Assembly: GCA_030696455.1 (NCBI GenBank)
Contig: JAUYSH010000135.1
Location: 1 to 37,502 of the forward strand
Direction of reading: 5' to 3'
From: Elusimicrobiota bacterium
GTDB lineage: Bacteria; Elusimicrobiota; Elusimicrobia; UBA1565; UBA9628
DNA: 37,502 bases
A program made the translations under genes and the position numbers. Positions 8,729 to 36,538 of this stretch are shown piece after piece. A model generated the notes under the pieces. The model did not search any database. It saw only the letters and a program-made list of their open reading frames with translations, and was not told the origin of the DNA. Position 1 is the first letter of the stretch; each line of letters opens with the position of its first letter.

Positions 8729-11470
8729 CTAGAAGGCTTCGTATTGAGGCTTCCACAGGCGCGAGAAGCCGATGGAGACGCCCGTGGTCATGATGTAGCC
8801 CCTGTTCGGGCGGGTCTTGAGCTGGAACCAGTAGACATCGAAGAACGGGGCCAAGGTCAGGTGGCGGCGGATCGGGATGCGCAGCTTGACGTTGAAGTCG
8901 CCCTCGAGGCGAAGGTCGCCGGCGGTGTCCTGCTTGGTCAGGAAGAAGTAGTTGTTCCAGAGCTCGCCCTGCAGCAGGGCCTTGGAGGGCCCGACCTCGC
9001 GCGAGAACACGGAGCGCAGGCGCAGACCGCTCTGGGTGTTCGGCGGCTCGCGGCCGAGGTCGCGCTTGAGGATGCCCGAAAGGACGAGCGTGCGCACGAA
9101 GGTCCCGTCGAAGAACTCGACGCCGGGGAAAAGGCTGTAGGCCTGCTTGCGGCGCAGGCCGCGCGCGGACTCGAACTCGCCGTCGTACTGCAGGCCGAGC
9201 GAAGGGCCCCAGGAGCGCGCGAGCCACTCCCGGCGGATCTGGCCCGCGCGGTGGGTGCCCAAGGTCAGCAGCATGATGCGGTTGGAGGCGAGGTTGACGG
9301 TCGCGGGAGCGTTGCGCGGCTCGAGGCGGCTCTTGGCGTACTCCGCCTCGACGGTGTTCGTCCATTTGAACTCGCGCTTGAGGTACTCGGCGTCGGCCTT
9401 GAACACGCCGCCGACGAGCAGCTCGTCGAAGCCCTGGATGCGGGAGTTGGGCACCGTGTTGAACTCGTCGGAGCGTACGACCTTGGTCTGACGCAGGTTC
9501 AGCCCGACGTCGCGGAAGTTCAGGCGCCAGAGGCCGGGCGCGCTCAGCGGAGCGCCGGCCATCCACCCGCGCCAGTCAGCGGCGCTCGCGCCGGCGGAAC
9601 GGGGCTTCAACTCGCCGAGCACGGCGGCGTCCACCGTCGAAGTCCCGTCGAAGAGCTCATAGGGCTCGGGCAGGCCCAGCGTCTCGGCGGCGGTCCTCGA
9701 GGTGGCGAGCCGGTATGAGCCCTTGGCGTCGAGAGGCGCGCCGCGAAGGCGGCGCTTCGAGTCGAAGCCGGACACCGTGAAGCGCAGCTTCGCGTCGACC
9801 GGCAGGCCGGCTTCCTCGCGACGCGCCTGCCCGGCGGCTTCGGCCGCGAGGCTCTTGAGCCGAGAGCCCGGCAGCGAGACGAGCACGGCCTGCCCGGCGC
9901 CGCCGAGGTTCGCGCGGATCAGGCCCTCGCGGACGCCGCCCGGCGTGTCGCCCATCATCCGCGACACGGGCAGCAGGCCCGCCTCGGCTCGTCCCCGCTC
10001 GGACAGAAGGCCCGCCGAGAGCGTCCAGAACTCGCGCGCCGTGTAGAACGGCCACTTGCGCCCCGTGCCCGCGAAGACGGCGCGCGCGGGGGGGATCAAA
10101 GGATTCTCGGTCGAGGCCGGCGCGACGAAGGCGTCCCACTCGCGGATCGGGAAGCCGTCGAGCTGGAGCGCGAGGTCGTCGAGCAGGCGCGCGGAGCTCG
10201 TCACCGTCCACGACGCGCGCTCATCCTCGACGCGCCGGTCGATCTCGTAGACGTTCAGAGCGGGGCGGTACGCGAGCAGCGCCGGGAACGGCGGAGCGTA
10301 GGCCGGGCGCTCGGCCTGGACGACGGTGGCCGAGGGCGGCGGCACGGTCGAGAAGCCGTCGGGCCCTTCGCCGAGGATGAGGTCGACGCCGGTCCCGGTG
10401 GTCAGGCGCTCGGAGCGCGCGAGCTCAGGCGGGGCGAGCAGGACGACGACGTCGGCCTCGGCGCGCAAGCGGGGGATGAGCTCGCTGACGGAGGTCGCCG
10501 CGTCGCGCACGGCCAGGCGGCCGAGCCCGAAGCGGGGGAGGAGCGCGCCGGCGGAGTCGGGCGTCAGCCCCACGAGGGCGACGCGCGTGCCGGAGGCGTC
10601 GACGACCGCGTACGGGGGGAAGGGCCCACGCGCGGCGTCCGTCGAGTAGACGAGGTTCGCCGAGAGGAAACGCACGCCGTCGGGATGCCCGTTCAGATAG
10701 GCCTCGAGGTCGGACCAATGCTCGATCTCGGAGGCGGAGATCGCCGACCAGCGCAGGCCGGCCCGCTCGAGGGCGTCGAGGACCTGGGGCGGCGTTCCGT
10801 CGGACATCGTCGAGCCCAAGGTCCCCCCGCGGGCGACGCCGAGCCACGGGCGGGGCGTAGCGGCCGCGGCGGCCGCCAGACGGGCGAGGCCGCCGTGCTC
10901 GCGGGCGGGGATGAGCACCGCCATGTCCCGCCCCTTCCAGCGCACGCGATAGAAGCCCGCGAAGCCTTGGCGCCAGCGGCGGGTCGCGCGGCGGTCGAGC
11001 TCGGCGCTCAAGGTCAGCGTGGTCGCGCCGGCCTGGGACACGTGGGCCGAGGCCTCGGCTTCCCGCTCACGCAGAGCCATCGCGCCGTAGACCGGGAACG
11101 TCGTCGGGTCGGCGGCCGACTTCACGAGCGCGGCGACGAAGTCCTCGGCCGGCGGGTAGACGAACGCGACGCCGTGCTCCGACTCGAGCGCCACGGCGGT
11201 GGAGGCGGAGTCCGTCGGCGGCGCGCCGAGCGCGCTCGGCAGGCGGCAGATGTGGTCGTCGCCGGTGAACGAGCAGGCGACGATGTCGACGCCGAGCAGC
11301 TCGGCGTCGCCGCCGGCGTCGCGCAGCGCGCGTTCGAGGGCCGGGACGACGGCCGTCGTCCCGGCCGAGGGCGTGTCCTCGATCAGGACCAGCCGCACGG
11401 GGGGAGCCGCCTGCGCGGCGGCGACGGCAAGGAAGACGGCGGATAGGAACGCAATCACGGGAGCGGGCAT
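8729..11470 (-). CDS. Degenerate UshA-like 5'-nucleotidase fused to outer-membrane beta-barrel
   Basis: A 913-residue exported protein. A signal peptide (about 1-21, ending AQA-A) precedes a region of UshA/5'-nucleotidase plan. The metallophosphatase strand pattern is recognisable around 225-300 (RFLSANLVYSTD, FPPYAVVDASGTRVALVGLT). The GNHEFD metal motif is replaced by SASEIEH near residue 245, and the later histidine motif has become LLAPPE near 345. A 5'-nucleotidase C-terminal-like domain follows at about 490-640 (GSRLKSLAAEA, KGSYRLATS). From about 690 to the end, alternating strands finish in SIGFSRLWKPQYEAF; a terminal Phe is typical of BAM-inserted barrels. Catalysis is doubtful; a binding or surface role is likelier. 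It is last in a minus-strand cluster with prc and a secreted kinase-like protein. Domain calls come from motifs, not a search. Confidence 0.65.
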   Translation of the reverse strand: MPAPVIAFLSAVFLAVAAAQAAPPVRLVLIEDTPSAGTTAVVPALERALRDAGGDAELLGVDIVACSFTGDDHICRLPSALGAPPTDSASTAVALESEHGVAFVYPPAEDFVAALVKSAADPTTFPVYGAMALREREAEASAHVSQAGATTLTLSAELDRRATRRWRQGFAGFYRVRWKGRDMAVLIPAREHGGLARLAAAAAATPRPWLGVARGGTLGSTMSDGTPPQVLDALERAGLRWSAISASEIEHWSDLEAYLNGHPDGVRFLSANLVYSTDAARGPFPPYAVVDASGTRVALVGLTPDSAGALLPRFGLGRLAVRDAATSVSELIPRLRAEADVVVLLAPPELARSERLTTGTGVDLILGEGPDGFSTVPPPSATVVQAERPAYAPPFPALLAYRPALNVYEIDRRVEDERASWTVTSSARLLDDLALQLDGFPIREWDAFVAPASTENPLIPPARAVFAGTGRKWPFYTAREFWTLSAGLLSERGRAEAGLLPVSRMMGDTPGGVREGLIRANLGGAGQAVLVSLPGSRLKSLAAEAAGQARREEAGLPVDAKLRFTVSGFDSKRRLRGAPLDAKGSYRLATSRTAAETLGLPEPYELFDGTSTVDAAVLGELKPRSAGASAADWRGWMAGAPLSAPGLWRLNFRDVGLNLRQTKVVRSDEFNTVPNSRIQGFDELLVGGVFKADAEYLKREFKWTNTVEAEYAKSRLEPRNAPATVNLASNRIMLLTLGTHRAGQIRREWLARSWGPSLGLQYDGEFESARGLRRKQAYSLFPGVEFFDGTFVRTLVLSGILKRDLGREPPNTQSGLRLRSVFSREVGPSKALLQGELWNNYFFLTKQDTAGDLRLEGDFNVKLRIPIRRHLTLAPFFDVYWFQLKTRPNRGYIMTTGVSIGFSRLWKPQYEAF

Positions 11471-11557: not shown

Positions 11558-13834
11558 TTACTGCGTCACGGCTTGGCGGCGGCGGCGCTCGGCCTGCCCG
11601 ACCGGCAGGGGCGGCGTCACCGCGGTCAGGTCGGCCGCGATGCGCAAAGTCTCATCGAGCACCGAGTCGGGCGCGTCGGCCGCGGCCTCGAAGCCGGGTG
11701 CGTCCTCGTCGAGCCCCATGGCGGCGGGCGTCCCGGGCGCCGGAGCGGTCGTCGTCGAGACGGCGGGCGCCTTGCCGTCGAGGATGGCCAACGTGATCTC
11801 CTCGGAGGGGTAGGGCTTCTCCTTGCCGGCGGCGCGCTCCTTCTTGCGCGAGGCGAGGCGCTCCTCGTCGGTCTTGCGCTCGGCCAAGCGCTCCTTCTCG
11901 TTGAGCGAGAGCCCCTTATCTTTTTTTTGCTTCTCCCAGCGGGCCATGTCCTCCTTGATCCACTTGAACTCGCGCGAGGCCGCGACGCGGGCCGTCGACG
12001 CCTTGGTCAAGGTCGAGAGGTGCGCCTGCAGAGTCACGCTGCGGTCGTAGGGGACGGGCTCGACCTCGTCGTAGGGCAGCGCGCTCTTCTGCGAGCTCTC
12101 GGTCGACTCGCTGATGTCGCCGTAGAAGGGGAGGTGGATGTCGGGCAGCACCCCCCGGTTCTGCGTCGAGCCGCCGGAGACGCGGTAGAACTTCTGGATC
12201 GTCAGCTTCAGCGCGCCGGGCTTATAAGAACGGTAGGCCGGCGGGAGGTACTGGTTGAGCTCGAGCACCGACTGCACCGTGCCCTTGCCGAAGGTCTTCT
12301 TCTCGCCGACGACGATGCCGCGGCCGTAGTCCTGCAGGGCCGCCGCGAAGATCTCGGAGGCCGAGGCGGAGCCGTGCGCGGTCAGCACGATCATCGGCCC
12401 GTCGAAGGTCGTCATCGAGTCGTTGTCGCGCAGCAGCTTGATCGTGCCGCGGGTGTCCTTGACCTGGACGACGGGACCGGAGTTGATGAACAGGCCGGTG
12501 AGCGAGACGGCCTCGGACAGCGAACCGCCGCCGTCGCGCCGCAGGTCGATGATCAGCGAATCCACGCCGCGCCGCTTCATCTCCCCGATGAGACGCTCGG
12601 TGTCGCGCGTGGCGCTCTTGCCGTCGGAGCCGCCGCGCATGTCCGCGTAGAACGAGGGCAGGTCGAGCACGCCGACGCGCGAGGGCTTGCCGCCCTTGCC
12701 GGGCACGGTGAAGATCTTGGCCCTGGCCTCCTGGTCGGTGAGCTTGATCTCGTCGCGCACGAGGGTGATGACGACGCGCGTGGCGGGATCGATCGCGGCG
12801 GCGGGGATGACGCGCATGCGCACGGTGGAGCCCTTCTCGCCGCGGATCATCTGCACGAGACGGTCGAGCTTCATGCCGACGGCGTCGACGAACGGGCCGT
12901 CGCCCTGGGCGACCGCCTCGATCTTGTCGTTGGGCTTCAGGCGCTTGTCGGAGTCCGCGGGGCCGCCGGGGACGAGGGAGACGATGCGCGCGTAGCCGTC
13001 CTCGGAGCGAAGCACGGCGCCGATGCCGACGAGGGAGAGCTTCATGCTGATGTCGAAGTTCTCCTTCTGGGCGGCGGCGAGGTAGTCCGTATGGGGATCG
13101 AAGACCCGTGTCAGCGCGGAGACGAAGGTGGAGAACACGTCGATCCCGTCGTACTCCTTGTAGCTGCGCAGGATGCGGTCGTAGCGCTGGTCGATGGTCT
13201 CCTTGGCCGTGAGCTCCTTGGCCGGCTTGACCGCTTCTTCGGCCTTCGCCTCGGGCTTGGCGGCGGGTTTTTCCGCGGCCTTCTTGGCGGCGGCGGCCTT
13301 GGCCTCCTCGGCCTTGCGCTTGGCGAGGCGCTCGAGCAGGACCTCGTGCTTGATGCGCAGGCGCCAGAGCTCCTTGGACTCCTCGGGCGTCGCGGGCCAA
13401 GGCATCTCGTGGCGGTCGAGGACGATCTTCTCGTTGTTGGTGAAGTCGAAGGTGGAGGACGTCAGCTCCTTGACGTGCGCGACGCGCTCCTCGAGGCGCT
13501 TCACGACGCGTTCATGGATCTCGTAGGCGGCCTCGACGTCGCCGTCCTTGAGCCGGTCGTCGAGCGTGGCCCCGTACTTCGCCTCGAACTCGTCGACGTC
13601 GCTCTTCTCGAGGATCATGTGGTTGTAGTCGTAGGCCTCGAGGTAGTTGCGCAGGAAGTCCTTGGAGACCGCGTCGTCGATCGGGCGGCGCGCGTAATGA
13701 GTCTGCTCGAGCAGGCGGCCGACGAGCTCGGCGACGATGGGGCCGCCGCCGTACTTGTCGAAGGCGGAGGCGGGAACCGCGAGGACCAGCGCCAGCGAGA
13801 CGGCGAGCAGCCGCCGAAAAATCGTGTCATTCAT
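11558..13834 (-). CDS. prc: Tail-specific (C-terminal processing) protease Prc
   Basis: A 758-residue periplasmic serine protease of the Prc/Tsp type, family S41A. A signal peptide (about 1-24) is followed by the N-terminal helical domain, interrupted at about 185-215 by a Lys/Ala/Glu-rich insert (KRKAEEAKAAAAKKAAEKP). A PDZ domain lies at about 265-350 (SLVGIGAVLRSEDGYARI). The protease core has catalytic Ser near residue 490 in GSASASEIFAAALQDYGRG and the Lys general base about 25 residues later in KKTFGKGTVQ. Prc degrades or trims proteins with exposed C-termini and in E. coli controls murein hydrolases through NlpI. The ATG lies 5 nt after the stop of the kinase-like gene with AAAGG upstream, so the two are co-transcribed. 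The target may be a neighbouring envelope protein, but this is only inferred. Confidence 0.93.
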   Translation of the reverse strand: MNDTIFRRLLAVSLALVLAVPASAFDKYGGGPIVAELVGRLLEQTHYARRPIDDAVSKDFLRNYLEAYDYNHMILEKSDVDEFEAKYGATLDDRLKDGDVEAAYEIHERVVKRLEERVAHVKELTSSTFDFTNNEKIVLDRHEMPWPATPEESKELWRLRIKHEVLLERLAKRKAEEAKAAAAKKAAEKPAAKPEAKAEEAVKPAKELTAKETIDQRYDRILRSYKEYDGIDVFSTFVSALTRVFDPHTDYLAAAQKENFDISMKLSLVGIGAVLRSEDGYARIVSLVPGGPADSDKRLKPNDKIEAVAQGDGPFVDAVGMKLDRLVQMIRGEKGSTVRMRVIPAAAIDPATRVVITLVRDEIKLTDQEARAKIFTVPGKGGKPSRVGVLDLPSFYADMRGGSDGKSATRDTERLIGEMKRRGVDSLIIDLRRDGGGSLSEAVSLTGLFINSGPVVQVKDTRGTIKLLRDNDSMTTFDGPMIVLTAHGSASASEIFAAALQDYGRGIVVGEKKTFGKGTVQSVLELNQYLPPAYRSYKPGALKLTIQKFYRVSGGSTQNRGVLPDIHLPFYGDISESTESSQKSALPYDEVEPVPYDRSVTLQAHLSTLTKASTARVAASREFKWIKEDMARWEKQKKDKGLSLNEKERLAERKTDEERLASRKKERAAGKEKPYPSEEITLAILDGKAPAVSTTTAPAPGTPAAMGLDEDAPGFEAAADAPDSVLDETLRIAADLTAVTPPLPVGQAERRRRQAVTQ

Positions 13835-13839
13835 GTTGT

Positions 13840-15810
13840 TTACCTTTGAGCGGCGTTGCGTTCGACAAATTGGTTCACGAAGTCTGCGTCATTTTGGAGC
13901 GTCCAGTCCAGGTCCGCGGCGTTGAGGTCGAAGCGGGCGAGGAGGCCGGCCGCCTCGGCCGGCGTGAAGCCGGAGGCGGCCAGGTCCGCGACGATCGCGG
14001 CGCGGGTCTCGGGCTTCTTGAGGAATTCGCGCCAGGCGCGCACCCCGGGCTGGTAGTCCTCGATGGCGTTGCGCTCGCCGCGGTTCATCCACGGCATCTC
14101 GAGGGCGATGCGTTCGTCGGGCACCCGGCCGGCGACCGGGGCGGCGCGGCCGAAGGCCTGCTCGAAATCGATGAGCCAGGGGAGCCCTCCGTCATGGTCG
14201 GAGAGCACGTTGCCCGGGTTGACGTCGGAGACGCCGAAGGTGTGCAGGAACAGGGCGGCGGCGACGCGTTGCTCCTTGTTCAGCGGGTTCTTGTAGTGAG
14301 AAGGCGACGCCGCGAGCTTCTCCATGACCATGTACGACTCGTAGCCGTTCTTGACCGCGACGGAGGCGGGGACGCGGAAGTAGCGCCCGAAGAAGCGCCG
14401 GGCCAGACGTCGCAGGGCGACCTCGTTGCGGACGATGTCCCATTGGGCGATCTTGACGACATAGGGGGTCTTGCCCGGGGCCTCGACGGCCAGTATGACG
14501 GTGTTGAGCTTGCCGGGGTCGTCGCCGTGAAGCTTGTACTTCGTCTTGGCGTTGAGCGCGTCGTAGCCGGCGCGCCTGACGGCCTCGCGGGCGGAGACGA
14601 CCGTGTCGTCGAGCCCGGCCGGACCCTTCGCCGCGGGGCCGAAGACGAGCCGGGGGGCGGCGGGGCGCGCGGCGTCTCGGCGGGCGAGCTCGGCCAACGG
14701 CTGCGCGCCGGCCTTCGAGCCCCGGAGCTCGGCGACGGTCCGGGCCCAGGCCGCGGAATCCGGGCCCAGCCGCGCGCGCAGGCCCGACAGGAAGACGGCC
14801 GCGTCGAGGCCGGCGCGGCTCAGCAGCTCCGGAGCCAGCAGCTGATCGAGCACGGGCCGGACGCCGCCGGGGGCGAGGCTTCCCGCGTCGACGATCACCC
14901 ATCTCGTGCGCCAGTGCTGCCAGACGAGGTTGCCGCGGGCGAGGTCGGCGGTCACACCCGCGGATATGAGCTTGGCGGCGAGCTCGGGCCAGCCCTCGGC
15001 CTGGGAGCGCGAGAACGCCCCGCGCTCGAGCAGCTCGTGGGCGGTGGCCCCTTCGATGAACTCCTTGACGAGGACCTTGCCGTCGCGGCTCTCCGCGACG
15101 AGCCTGGCCACGGGCAGGCCGGAGCCCGCCAGCGCGCGCAAGGTCGCGGCCTCCTCGCGCACGCCCGGCAGCGCCATGGCGCCGGGGTGAAGAAGCTTGA
15201 TCGCGTAGTTGCCGTCGCGCGACTTCCATACTTTCGAGGTGCCGCCGTCGCCGGCGGGCTTGTCGAGCGTCGTCTTGACCCCGCCGACGCGAACGACGTC
15301 TCCGGGCTTGCCGGGCCAGCCGGGCGCTCGCTCGCCGAACGGCAGGCGCTCGAGCAGGGAGCCCCACAACGAGGGTTTGGCCTGATCGAACAGCGCCGCG
15401 CCCTCGGCCAGGCCGCTTCCGCCGGCGTCGGCGTCCCGCTCGGCCGACCCGGCCGCCGCGGCCGGCCGGATCGTCTGGCCGAGCGCGGCGGGCCGGGTGG
15501 CCGTCACGGCGGAGACCGGCAAGAGCGGTATGGGGACGGCTTGAACCGGGTGCGCGGCCGCCGGCGCGGCCGCAATGGGAACGGCGACCATGGAGGCCGG
15601 GGACAAAGCCGAGGCCAAGGTCGGCGCGCCGGCGCCCGTCAACGGCGTCACGGTGAGCTGGACGGGGACGGGGGCGCCCAACGACGAGCCGATCGAGCCC
15701 GACTGTCCGCCGGGCCGGACCTGGACGGAAACGGGCGCTTCGACCTGGCCCGCCGTCGCGGGGGCGGCCAGGGCGAGCATGAAAAACGCCATAAGGGCGC
15801 GGGATTTCAC
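13840..15810 (-). CDS. Secreted protein with two tandem kinase-like (APH/ChoK-type) domains
   Basis: A 656-residue protein starting at GTG. The signal peptide is residues 1-21 (MKSRALMAFFMLALAAPATA), followed by an Ala/Pro/Val-rich tract to about 120 with GAALFDQAKPS near its end. Domain 1 (about 165-345) has a kinase Lys in NYAIKLL (near 203), a catalytic-loop-like ADLARGNLV (near 288) and metal Asp in VIVDAG (near 305). Domain 2 (about 385-600) has YVVKIAQ (near 452), SDVNPGNVL (near 531) and WLIDFEQAFG (near 548). These follow the Lys, D-x4-N and [IV]D-x order of aminoglycoside and choline kinase folds, and both copies keep the key residues. Export is odd because ATP is scarce outside the cytoplasm. 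It is first in an operon with prc. The substrate is unknown and activity untested; the kinase fold is inferred from motifs. Confidence 0.7.
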   Translation of the reverse strand: MKSRALMAFFMLALAAPATAGQVEAPVSVQVRPGGQSGSIGSSLGAPVPVQLTVTPLTGAGAPTLASALSPASMVAVPIAAAPAAAHPVQAVPIPLLPVSAVTATRPAALGQTIRPAAAAGSAERDADAGGSGLAEGAALFDQAKPSLWGSLLERLPFGERAPGWPGKPGDVVRVGGVKTTLDKPAGDGGTSKVWKSRDGNYAIKLLHPGAMALPGVREEAATLRALAGSGLPVARLVAESRDGKVLVKEFIEGATAHELLERGAFSRSQAEGWPELAAKLISAGVTADLARGNLVWQHWRTRWVIVDAGSLAPGGVRPVLDQLLAPELLSRAGLDAAVFLSGLRARLGPDSAAWARTVAELRGSKAGAQPLAELARRDAARPAAPRLVFGPAAKGPAGLDDTVVSAREAVRRAGYDALNAKTKYKLHGDDPGKLNTVILAVEAPGKTPYVVKIAQWDIVRNEVALRRLARRFFGRYFRVPASVAVKNGYESYMVMEKLAASPSHYKNPLNKEQRVAAALFLHTFGVSDVNPGNVLSDHDGGLPWLIDFEQAFGRAAPVAGRVPDERIALEMPWMNRGERNAIEDYQPGVRAWREFLKKPETRAAIVADLAASGFTPAEAAGLLARFDLNAADLDWTLQNDADFVNQFVERNAAQR

Positions 15811-15822: not shown

Positions 15823-15856
15823 ACAGTAGTTCCGGCGACGCGCCAGGGGGCGGGCG

Positions 15857-33472: not shown

Positions 33473-35223
33473 CAGGGCTTCAGGCGGCGGGAGGCATAGA
33501 AAACGGCCAGCGCCAGCGCGCTGAAGCCGGCGCAGATCCAGAACAGCGCGGTCGCCGTCGGCAGCGCTCCGAGCAGGGCGCCAAGCGCCAAAGTGACGAG
33601 GGCCGAGCCGAGGACGAACGCGCCGTACAGGAAGCTGATCGCGCGCGGCTGGTCCTTCTCGGAGACCGTGCGCTGGACCTCGGAGCGCAGCGACAGGTCG
33701 CTGGCCGCCCACGTCAGCGAAGAGAAAAGGATCAGGGGCAGCAGGATCGGCAGGCTCGTCGAGAGGGCCAGGGCCCAGATCAGCAGGAGCCCGAGCGCGC
33801 CCCACTTGACCCAGCCGTGCGAGCCGGGGAAGCGCGAGGCGAGCTTGAGCAGGACGGCCGCCCCGGCGAGCTCCCCGGCGTTGGAGGCGGTGAGCAGCCA
33901 GGCCGAGGCGGAGGGGTTCTCGAGCACGGTCTTGGCGAACACGGGGATCAGCAGGCCCTCGAAGACGCGGTGGACGATCTGCGGCAGCACGAAGGCGAGC
34001 GCGATCCAGCGCATGCGCCCGTCGCCCATCACGAGCTTGGCGCCGGCCTTGATGTCCTTGAAGTAGTCCGCGATCCGGCCGCGCACGCCGCCCGCGGCGG
34101 GGGGGGTGTTGGCGGGCAAAGCGTGGCGCACGCGCCAGAAATACCAGGCCGCGAGCGCGAAAGCCGGGGGCTGGATGACGAGAGACCACAGCGGGCCGAC
34201 GAGGCCGATCAGGGCGCCCGCGGTGAGGGCGCCGGCGACGCCGGCGACCTCGTACCAGATGTGGAGCTTCGCGTTGTACTTCTTGAGCGCGGCCTCGTCC
34301 TGGCCGAGGAGCAAGGTCGGGATCGAGTGGCGCGTGGTCTCGATGACGCCGGTCACGCCGCCGATGAGCAGGTACAACGGGATCAAGGTCCCCATCGAGA
34401 GCGCGCCGGCGGCGCCTACGGCGATCAAGGTCCCGACGAGGGCGGCCTGGGCGGCGACGGCGCCGGCCAGGACCTTGCGCGCGGAGAAGCGGTCGGCGAG
34501 GCCTCCCGCCGCCGCGGCGAAGACGGCCTGGGAGAGGCCGTAGACGACGACGAGGCCGGCGACGGCGGAGATGCCGCCGAAGGCGGTGAGCGCGAGCAAC
34601 GGCACGCTCAAGGTGATCGTCTCCATGCCCGACTTCAGCGCGGCGGTGCCGATCATCATGCGGCGGACGTTTTTCGCGGCTTCGGGGGAGGGGGTGGGGG
34701 AGCGGGGGGCGGGCGTGAGCGAGGCCGGCGAGAGGGGCGAGGGGGACAGCGACGGGGAGTCGAAGTGCGAGGGGGCGGCGAGGACGGAGGTGTCGGGGCG
34801 GGGGGTGAGGGCTTCGCCGGTCAGAAGAGAGAAGCTTTCGGACGCGGCGGCGGGGGCGGCGGCGAGGGGGATGTGGGGAAGAGCTCTCGTCAGGGCCGAG
34901 GCGGCCGCGACGCGGGACGGCAACGGCTTAACGGCTTCGATCTTGGGAACAACGGCGACGGCGCTGAGGCTTGCCGGCGAAATCGCGGCTTGGAGCGCCG
35001 GCGTGGGCGATAACGACGACGGCGACGTCAACGATGTCAACGACAACGGCAACGATGTTAACGACAACGGAGTGGAGAAGCTCGAGGGTAGACCGGCGCC
35101 CGTGACGGATAGGAAGGGGGTTGGAGCTGCGATCGGCTTCGCCGATCGGATTTGAGATAAGGCGTCGGCGGGGAATGAAGCCGAGAGCAGCGAGAATATT
35201 ACGGCGATTGCGGCGGGGCGCAT
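33472..35223 (-). CDS. MFS transporter with signal-peptide and low-complexity N-terminal extension
   Basis: A 583-residue protein. The last ~390 residues (from about 193, KNVRRMMIGTAALKSGMETI) are a 12-helix major facilitator of the drug-efflux/enterobactin-exporter kind (GLADRFSARKVLAG between helices 2 and 3). In front is an unusual 190-residue extension: a signal-peptide-like start (MRPAAIAVIFSLLSASFPADA, then LSQI) followed by a Ser/Pro/Leu/Ala-rich tract with many LSLTSL- and LSPAS-type repeats. The same plan occurs in three other proteins in this window. It implies a large periplasmic tail before the first helix. The start ATG lies 1 nt after the stop of the CPBP gene. The substrate cannot be read. 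Confidence 0.85.
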   Translation of the reverse strand: MRPAAIAVIFSLLSASFPADALSQIRSAKPIAAPTPFLSVTGAGLPSSFSTPLSLTSLPLSLTSLTSPSSLSPTPALQAAISPASLSAVAVVPKIEAVKPLPSRVAAASALTRALPHIPLAAAPAAASESFSLLTGEALTPRPDTSVLAAPSHFDSPSLSPSPLSPASLTPAPRSPTPSPEAAKNVRRMMIGTAALKSGMETITLSVPLLALTAFGGISAVAGLVVVYGLSQAVFAAAAGGLADRFSARKVLAGAVAAQAALVGTLIAVGAAGALSMGTLIPLYLLIGGVTGVIETTRHSIPTLLLGQDEAALKKYNAKLHIWYEVAGVAGALTAGALIGLVGPLWSLVIQPPAFALAAWYFWRVRHALPANTPPAAGGVRGRIADYFKDIKAGAKLVMGDGRMRWIALAFVLPQIVHRVFEGLLIPVFAKTVLENPSASAWLLTASNAGELAGAAVLLKLASRFPGSHGWVKWGALGLLLIWALALSTSLPILLPLILFSSLTWAASDLSLRSEVQRTVSEKDQPRAISFLYGAFVLGSALVTLALGALLGALPTATALFWICAGFSALALAVFYASRRLKP

Positions 35224-35224
35224 C

Positions 35225-36538
35225 CTACTTTTTATCTTGCAGCATCATGATCCCCTTCACCGCCAACGCGACGGCGCCGATGGCCCAGAATATGTTCGGC
35301 ATCAAGAAGAAGTAGCCGAGCACCAGGATGGCGGCCATGAGGAAGGCGAGAGCGGCGTTCAGCGGCTTGGGGGTCAGGGCGCCCGAGGCGATGTCGGGCT
35401 TCTGGGCGCGGATGGACTTGGCGGCCCTGAAGGCGAAGTAAAGGGCGACGGGAATGGTCGCGATGCTCAGCAAGGGCAGCCCGAGCGCGGTGAACACCAC
35501 GGAGGACGCGAGCAGGCCGTTGAAGAAGCCGTGCGCGGCCATGGCGGCGAGTATGCCCTCCTTCTGGTAGACGCGGCCGAGGATCATCGAGTGGACGAAC
35601 CGCGTGGCGAAGAGCACGGGGTCCGCGGTCTCGTGAAGCGCCACGAAGATCAGGGAGGTGGCGGTCGCGGGGAGGACGAAGGTTCCGAGGCGGAATTTTG
35701 CCGAGAGCTGGGACAGTTTTTTCTGCAGGCCGCCGCGGAAGATGGCCTCCTCCGAGACCGGGGCCATCACGGCGGCGCCGACCCATAGCGCGAGGGCGCT
35801 GATGATCGTCGGCATCGCCCCGGCGTCGGGCCCCTCGTAGTTCGGGTGCAGCTCGTAGCCGAGCAGCTGGGCGACGACGACGGTGACCATGGTGATCGCG
35901 ATCGGGATGACCGCGGCGAGGAAGCCGACGTTGAGCGTGCGCTTGACCGAGGTCGCCGGCGCGGGCGCGGCGTCGGGGGCGCGCAGGGACTTGACCCAGC
36001 GCGGGCCTTGAGACGGCGCGAGGCGAGGGGAGTCCGACGGAGCCGAGAGGCCGGCGTAGGCGAGGGCCGTGGGGCGGGCGCTCGAGCCTTCGAACAGGCC
36101 GTCGAGCGCCGCGCGCGGGGCCCCGGCGTCCGAGGTTTTCGCGGCCGAGGCGAGCGCGCCGCCGCCGGTCTGGAGGACGGCGAGGGCGGCGGGTTGGGCG
36201 GGGACGGCCGCGGCTCTCAGGAAGGGGGCCTTGAGCGCGTTCGCGGGGGCGATGATCCGGGTCGCGGCCGGACTCGCGGCGGAGACGGACGCGTAGATCA
36301 GAGGCGCCAATGAGGGCGCGGGCGTCAGCGTCGGGATCAGGCCGGCTTGGAGATTCGCGGACGGAAGAACGGCGGACATGCCGCCGAGGCCGTGGATCGA
36401 CGCGCCGGCGGCGCCGGCGGCGCCGGCGGGAGCGGCGACGCGCGCCGAGAGCGTCTGCGCGGCGGCCTGGTAGGGCGCGAGGCCGGGGGCGGCGAGGATG
36501 AGCGACAGCGCGACGAAAAAGCGGGTGATCCGGTTCAT
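35225..36538 (-). CDS. CPBP-family intramembrane glutamic protease with signal peptide and Ala/Pro-rich N-terminus
   Basis: A 437-residue protein. The C-terminal half (from about 215) is a CPBP/Abi membrane protease with all three motifs: EEAIFRGGLQ at about 260 (Glu-Glu and Arg), FVALHETADP at about 298 and HGFFNGLLAS at about 337. Relatives cleave prenylated CAAX proteins or bacteriocin-related peptides. The N-terminus has a signal peptide (MNRITRFFVALSLILAAPG, cleavage likely at AAA-QTL) and then about 180 residues rich in Ala and Pro, including ALDGLFEGSSARPTA. This extension resembles those of the MFS, kinase-like and small secreted proteins here. First gene of the operon with MFS and GNAT; TATACT lies 6 nt upstream. 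Confidence 0.85.
   Translation of the reverse strand: MNRITRFFVALSLILAAPGLAPYQAAAQTLSARVAAPAGAAGAAGASIHGLGGMSAVLPSANLQAGLIPTLTPAPSLAPLIYASVSAASPAATRIIAPANALKAPFLRAAAVPAQPAALAVLQTGGGALASAAKTSDAGAPRAALDGLFEGSSARPTALAYAGLSAPSDSPRLAPSQGPRWVKSLRAPDAAPAPATSVKRTLNVGFLAAVIPIAITMVTVVVAQLLGYELHPNYEGPDAGAMPTIISALALWVGAAVMAPVSEEAIFRGGLQKKLSQLSAKFRLGTFVLPATATSLIFVALHETADPVLFATRFVHSMILGRVYQKEGILAAMAAHGFFNGLLASSVVFTALGLPLLSIATIPVALYFAFRAAKSIRAQKPDIASGALTPKPLNAALAFLMAAILVLGYFFLMPNIFWAIGAVALAVKGIMMLQDKK

Follow-up and report, generated by a model that had tools for sequence, protein, structure and literature searches.

Kinase folds that work outside the cytoplasm are known from animals, where the secretory-pathway kinase FAM20C is activated by FAM20A, a pseudokinase (PMC7948968). 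In bacteria, Legionella Lani_1194 and Lcin_0519 are predicted kinase families for which a role in decorating secreted factors or the lipopolysaccharide of the envelope was proposed (PMC9758233). ATP is generally held to be absent from the periplasm (PMC11335348), although a review cites uptake of ATP into the periplasm of E. coli (PMC7432876). Since little ATP is thought to be present outside the cytoplasm, exported kinase folds are unexpected. The gene analysed here is carried by an Elusimicrobiota contig of 37,502 nucleotides (contig C50, hereafter the window) and is predicted to code for such a protein (Table 1). No description of this protein in Elusimicrobia was found in the literature searched.

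Table 1. Coordinates of the kinase-fold gene, its control elements, its domains and its neighbours in the window
Feature	Position	Strand	Basis
Kinase-fold gene	13840-15810	(-)	ORF of 656 aa, GTG start
-35-like element (CTGGC) in the promoter of the gene	15842..15846	(-)	kept upstream of orthologues
-10 element TATAGT, 6 nt 5' of the start codon	15817..15822	(-)	predicted leaderless transcript
Signal peptide, residues 1-20	15751..15810	(-)	N-terminal hydrophobic segment; putative cleavage ATA/GQ
Ala/Pro/Gly/Val-rich linker, residues 21-139 (119 aa)	15394..15750	(-)	composition
Domain 1, kinase fold, residues 140-392	14635..15393	(-)	alignment, tree, PDB profile matches to kinases, Foldseek
Domain 2, kinase fold, residues 393-656	13843..14634	(-)	alignment, PDB profile, Foldseek
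Tsp/Prc tail-specific protease (PDZ, S41), exported	11558..13834	(-)	Pfam; starts 5 nt past the kinase stop codon
Exported 913-aa protein, 5'-nucleotidase-like region	8729..11470	(-)	profile match; synteny; downstream in the cluster

Gene start, promoter and export signal

The region upstream of the gene is organized identically in 11 orthologues, the window included: CTGGC, TATANT, exactly 6 nt, then GTG or ATG. The distance of 6 nt between the -10 box and the start codon is constant (11/11) and is also found in two paralogues in which the leader precedes GGDEF domains. The composite pattern CTGGC-N17..20-TATANT-N6-RTG occurs once in the window versus zero expected, and twice in the 4.0-Mb genome, i.e. 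ahead of the kinase gene and of an exported GGDEF gene on contig C139 (zero in the reversed control). With a -10 box lying 6 nt from the start codon, transcription would begin at the start codon itself and a leaderless mRNA is predicted. The same arrangement is frequent in the genome. TATANT-N6-ATG matched 84 times versus 4 times for the reversed pattern, ATG opens a substantial ORF at nearly all of the 30 sampled loci (L114-L143), and among the TATAAT sites followed by ATG 3-10 nt on, the spacing of 6 is the peak (39/95). This suggests widespread leaderless transcription in the Elusimicrobiota genome of the window.

The signal peptide reads MKSRALMAFFMLALAAPATA followed by GQ and is the sole membrane-like segment of the protein. 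Each of the 20 orthologues whose 5' end is complete has a signal-peptide-like hydrophobic N-terminus, including one missed by a crude filter because of an Asp within its h-region. The signal peptide proposed in the original prediction is thus borne out, with a start that the promoter fixes. A true start further downstream is ruled out by the segment that opens the 20 complete orthologues, and a wrongly annotated start by the constant promoter spacing together with these signal peptides. Six divergent domain-2 paralogues (L039, L100, L102, L103, L104 and the second protein in L108) also display, by eye, signal-peptide-like N-termini. The linker that follows consists of 24% Ala and 13% Pro, and the whole protein contains no cysteine. 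The start of the linker is common to exported GGDEF proteins and matches the C139 protein with an E-value of 1e-14.

Two other proteins of the window, an MFS transporter (33475-35223, (-)) and a CPBP/Rce1-like protein (35228-36538, (-)), combine a signal-peptide-like start with a long Ala/Pro/Ser/Leu linker.

The kinase-fold protein is predicted to be exported via a Sec-type signal peptide. A leader that fails to export the kinase domains, leaving them in the cytoplasm, is very improbable given the signal peptides of the 20 orthologues behind a start fixed by the promoter, the lack of any further membrane segment in the protein and the partners that are exported by their own signal peptides in both lineages described below. 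What speaks for cytoplasmic domains is the neighbouring MFS protein, which has a similar leader and linker: the position of its motif A would require a cytoplasmic linker, a poor fit with linker export.

The two kinase folds and their conservation

The original prediction recognized two kinase folds, and this holds in the light of structural matches, profile matches and the alignment of the two domains with each other. The key residues stand at the places given in that prediction. Domain 1 contains K205 (YAIKLL), E220, D289/N294 (TADLARGN) and D308 (VIVDAG); the corresponding residues of domain 2 are K453 (YVVKIA), E463 (RNE), D529/N534 (SDVNPGN) and D548 (LIDFEQ), preceded by GKLNT at 433-437. 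AlphaFold models built from shallow alignments (8 and 6 rows) reached a mean pLDDT of 72.8 for both domains together and 78.3 for domain 2, whose activation-segment region is of low confidence. For each model, the 50 Foldseek matches listed all have a kinase fold (best E 3e-4 for both domains and 1e-3 for domain 2), with low TM-scores of 0.2-0.4. They comprise Bud32/PRPK, PknA and Rv3910, which probably correspond to domain 1. Profile searches against the PDB retrieved RIO2 for domain 2 (E 0.0085) and protein kinases for domain 1 (E about 0.01), the top match of the latter (E 0.005) being a chain labelled acyl-CoA dehydrogenase. When the profiles of the two domains were compared without the linker common to both, the hinge, the catalytic loop and the metal Asp were paired (E 1.3e-5, probability 81). 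The fold, the Lys, the Asp-x4-Asn and the metal Asp expected of the Protein-kinase-like fold superfamily are all present, with moderate model confidence.

Single-sequence matches to particular families were weak, namely APH (13.9 bits), TCAD9 (12.2 bits), the MAD6 kinase (E 5e-4) and Bud32. The APH score is below the cut-off of PF01636 (23.2 bits), the best member reaching an E-value of 0.0018. TCAD9 matches (PF19974, cut-off 40 bits) extend to 15.1 bits over about 23 residues, and fall on the domain-2 catalytic loop in 10/19 members (best E 9e-5). No Pfam match was obtained to FAM20 up to E 10 (HMMER filters apply), nor, at the limits applied to the window protein and the domain sets, to SelO, HipA, CotH or choline kinase. 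For want of such a match, the protein was not taken as a direct member of FAM20, SelO, HipA or CotH, and choline-kinase membership is likewise without sequence support. By its sequence, the protein falls into none of the named families tested.

A kinase fold repurposed for AMPylation or for another nucleotidyl or acyl transfer has a SelO-type precedent, cited in PMC7948968, and an unusual invariant GKLNT motif lies near the glycine-loop position of domain 2. Nonetheless, this is improbable for a protein devoid of any SelO match in Pfam whose residues are ordered as in ordinary kinases.

The two domains evolve differently. In domain 2, GKLNT, K453, E463, D529, N534 and D548 are invariant in the 21/21 homologues that have this domain, and the catalytic residues are unchanged down to about 40% identity. 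The key residues are also retained in the frameshifted L036. This orthologue, located in the complete Elusimicrobiota chromosome CP096137.1 (L036:4098-6190), is split across frames, which points either to a broken gene or to a sequencing error. Domain 1 has degenerated in 10/26 homologues (L006, L007, L011-L015, L018, L019 and L038), where the Lys and/or the metal Asp are lost. On the domain-2 tree, domain 1 must have switched between the intact and the degenerate state at least twice. The four proteins reduced to domain 1 (L020, L027-L029) all have the full residue set; L037 is interrupted by a contig end. The window protein falls in the intact-domain 1 group. The claim that both domains are intact consequently stands for the window protein and its near relatives but does not extend to the family. 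Two equally intact kinases are not a family property, and domain 1 would often be a pseudokinase. From this loss in domain 1, set against the constancy of domain 2, we infer that domain 1 acts as a pseudokinase or has a regulatory role.

Partner genes, distribution and exported GGDEF proteins

The kinase gene lies directly upstream of the Tsp/Prc gene, on the same strand, in 12/12 genomes of the genus, and the two genes are separated by -4 to +22 nt; one of the genomes (G113) has domain 1 only. The two genes are apparently co-transcribed. Outside the genus the Tsp link is absent, save for a divergent Tsp neighbour in one genome of another genus. In the sister family f2, an exported ceramidase-like hydrolase comes next after the kinase gene in 4/6 genomes, overlapping it or within about 24 nt; the one protein tested matches PF04734 with an E-value of 3e-11. 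An exported neutral ceramidase-like protein of this family is encoded immediately after the kinase gene at L108:6629-8077(+). A lipid substrate for the kinase is conceivable in family f2.

Downstream in the cluster of the window, the profile of five orthologues of the 913-aa protein matches 5'-nucleotidases (E 4e-6), and the metal ligands of this region are apparently lost, as read from the sequence. An alternative reading is a nucleotide sensor without catalysis, in which the folds would bind extracytoplasmic nucleotides and control the Tsp protease or another envelope enzyme. The frequent degeneration of domain 1, the Tsp gene directly downstream and a 5'-nucleotidase-like protein with apparently lost ligands would all speak for such a sensor. 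It is nevertheless rather unlikely, the catalytic Asp, the Asn and the metal Asp being strict in 21/21 domains 2, beyond the usual needs of binding.

Full-length domain 2 was found in 23 of the 341 genomes of the phylum searched, all within one order. Adding distant domain-2 relatives brings the total to 31 genomes, one of them outside the order. A search of genome contigs with the window protein, which reaches close relatives alone, returned Elusimicrobia only. Relatives of the gene were found neither in viral contigs nor on plasmids, and a viral or plasmid origin was rejected. A weak match in the genome of the window (C113, E 0.08) was taken as chance, the main plus-strand ORF there reading as aminotransferase-like. 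Some distant relatives sit in very large proteins. In L096, L097, L098 and L099, domain-2 relatives lie inside large multidomain proteins with open frames of 1,300-4,900 aa, one of which matches DnaJ and RamC_N and carries the kinase-like domain twice.

Seven GGDEF-bearing proteins are encoded in the genome of the window, and the leader of the kinase protein is found in the C139 protein only, which has the promoter in common with the kinase gene as well and contains two GGDEF domains. Proteins in which two GGDEF domains come after a signal peptide and a linker are encoded at L049:5344-7737(-), L053:3282-5702(+) and L039:2042-5083(-); one of the three has, by eye, a kinase-like region ahead of the GGDEF domains and one has domain 2 after them. 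The L039 protein (G258) thereby unites a signal peptide, two GGDEF domains and domain 2 in one chain. As kinases and GGDEF domains both require nucleotides, the puzzle extends beyond one gene.

Another reading of the kinase is a secreted effector that also crosses the outer membrane and acts in or on another cell, where ATP is abundant. The occurrence of domain-2 relatives in very large multidomain proteins, with open frames of 1,500-4,900 aa, is in line with secretion, and so is the fact that exported GGDEF partners would need nucleotides too. An effector is yet decidedly unlikely: a delivery domain was not found in the window protein, and its gene, which stays at a single locus within the genus, is linked to that of a periplasmic protease of housekeeping type.

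Possibly, one Elusimicrobiota order runs nucleotide-dependent enzymes outside the cytoplasm, each preceded by a signal peptide: kinases in tandem or single form, GGDEF proteins, and fusions of GGDEF with kinase domains. This generalization is tentative and remains doubtful. If true, extracytoplasmic nucleotide-dependent enzymes would imply a so far unrecognized supply of nucleotide or phosphate donor in the envelope, together with a phosphorylation circuit that is linked to Tsp proteolysis.

A candidate envelope tandem and its known counterparts

The gene start, the signal peptide, the kinase folds, the invariant domain-2 residues and the gene order, all drawn from sequence, can be assembled into a model in which the protein is a pseudokinase-kinase tandem of the envelope. 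Domain 1 would have a regulatory part, and domain 2 would modify a substrate in the envelope that is connected with the partner. We consider this model about evenly balanced between right and wrong. The tandem protein would be exported, then act in the periplasm or on the cell surface. Domain 2 would be the catalytic phosphotransferase, phosphate being the group presumably transferred. Domain 1, a second kinase fold, would be mainly regulatory or substrate-binding; its catalytic set, kept in full in the window species, has been lost at least twice elsewhere. The substrate would likely be a protein or glycan of the envelope, handled together with the partner gene, which in the genus is the apparently co-transcribed Tsp/Prc gene, and the donor may be trace ATP or another compound. 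The model is weakened by a periplasm deemed ATP-free, by the poor model of the domain-2 activation segment, by the low TM-scores and by the missing Tsp link outside the genus. A further weakness comes from the MFS protein nearby, whose leader is of the same kind and whose topology fits poorly with linker export.

If domain 2 is active, the protein would be a bacterial kinase that is exported and has a defined partner, and bacterial phosphorylation outside the cytoplasm, together with its donor, would become a testable question. Among kinase-fold proteins, its unusual features would be its predicted location outside the cytoplasm and its partner set.

Several described systems can be compared to this protein. 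Bud32/PRPK, RIO2 and APH kinase-like families are the nearest by weak profile or fold matches; they are cytoplasmic, unlike the predicted location here, and the matches of the window protein are under curated cut-offs. CotH, an atypical kinase of bacteria, likewise acts on an outer layer of the cell (PMC7821199), but its setting is the spore coat, and the window protein has no Pfam match to it. Legionella Lani_1194 and Lcin_0519, compared by description only, differ as predicted effectors with another genomic context. In its way of working, the tandem would be closest to the FAM20A/FAM20C pair, by analogy and not as a member by sequence. The likeness would lie in a signal peptide, a kinase fold outside the cytoplasm (export being predicted here) and the pairing of a pseudokinase with a presumably active kinase (PMC7948968). 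In contrast to that pair, the window protein is bacterial, holds both domains in one chain, has no cysteines and no Pfam family match, and would work without an ATP-fed secretory lumen. That an intact kinase fold is repeatedly combined with a decayed one would also offer a bacterial parallel to FAM20C-FAM20A.
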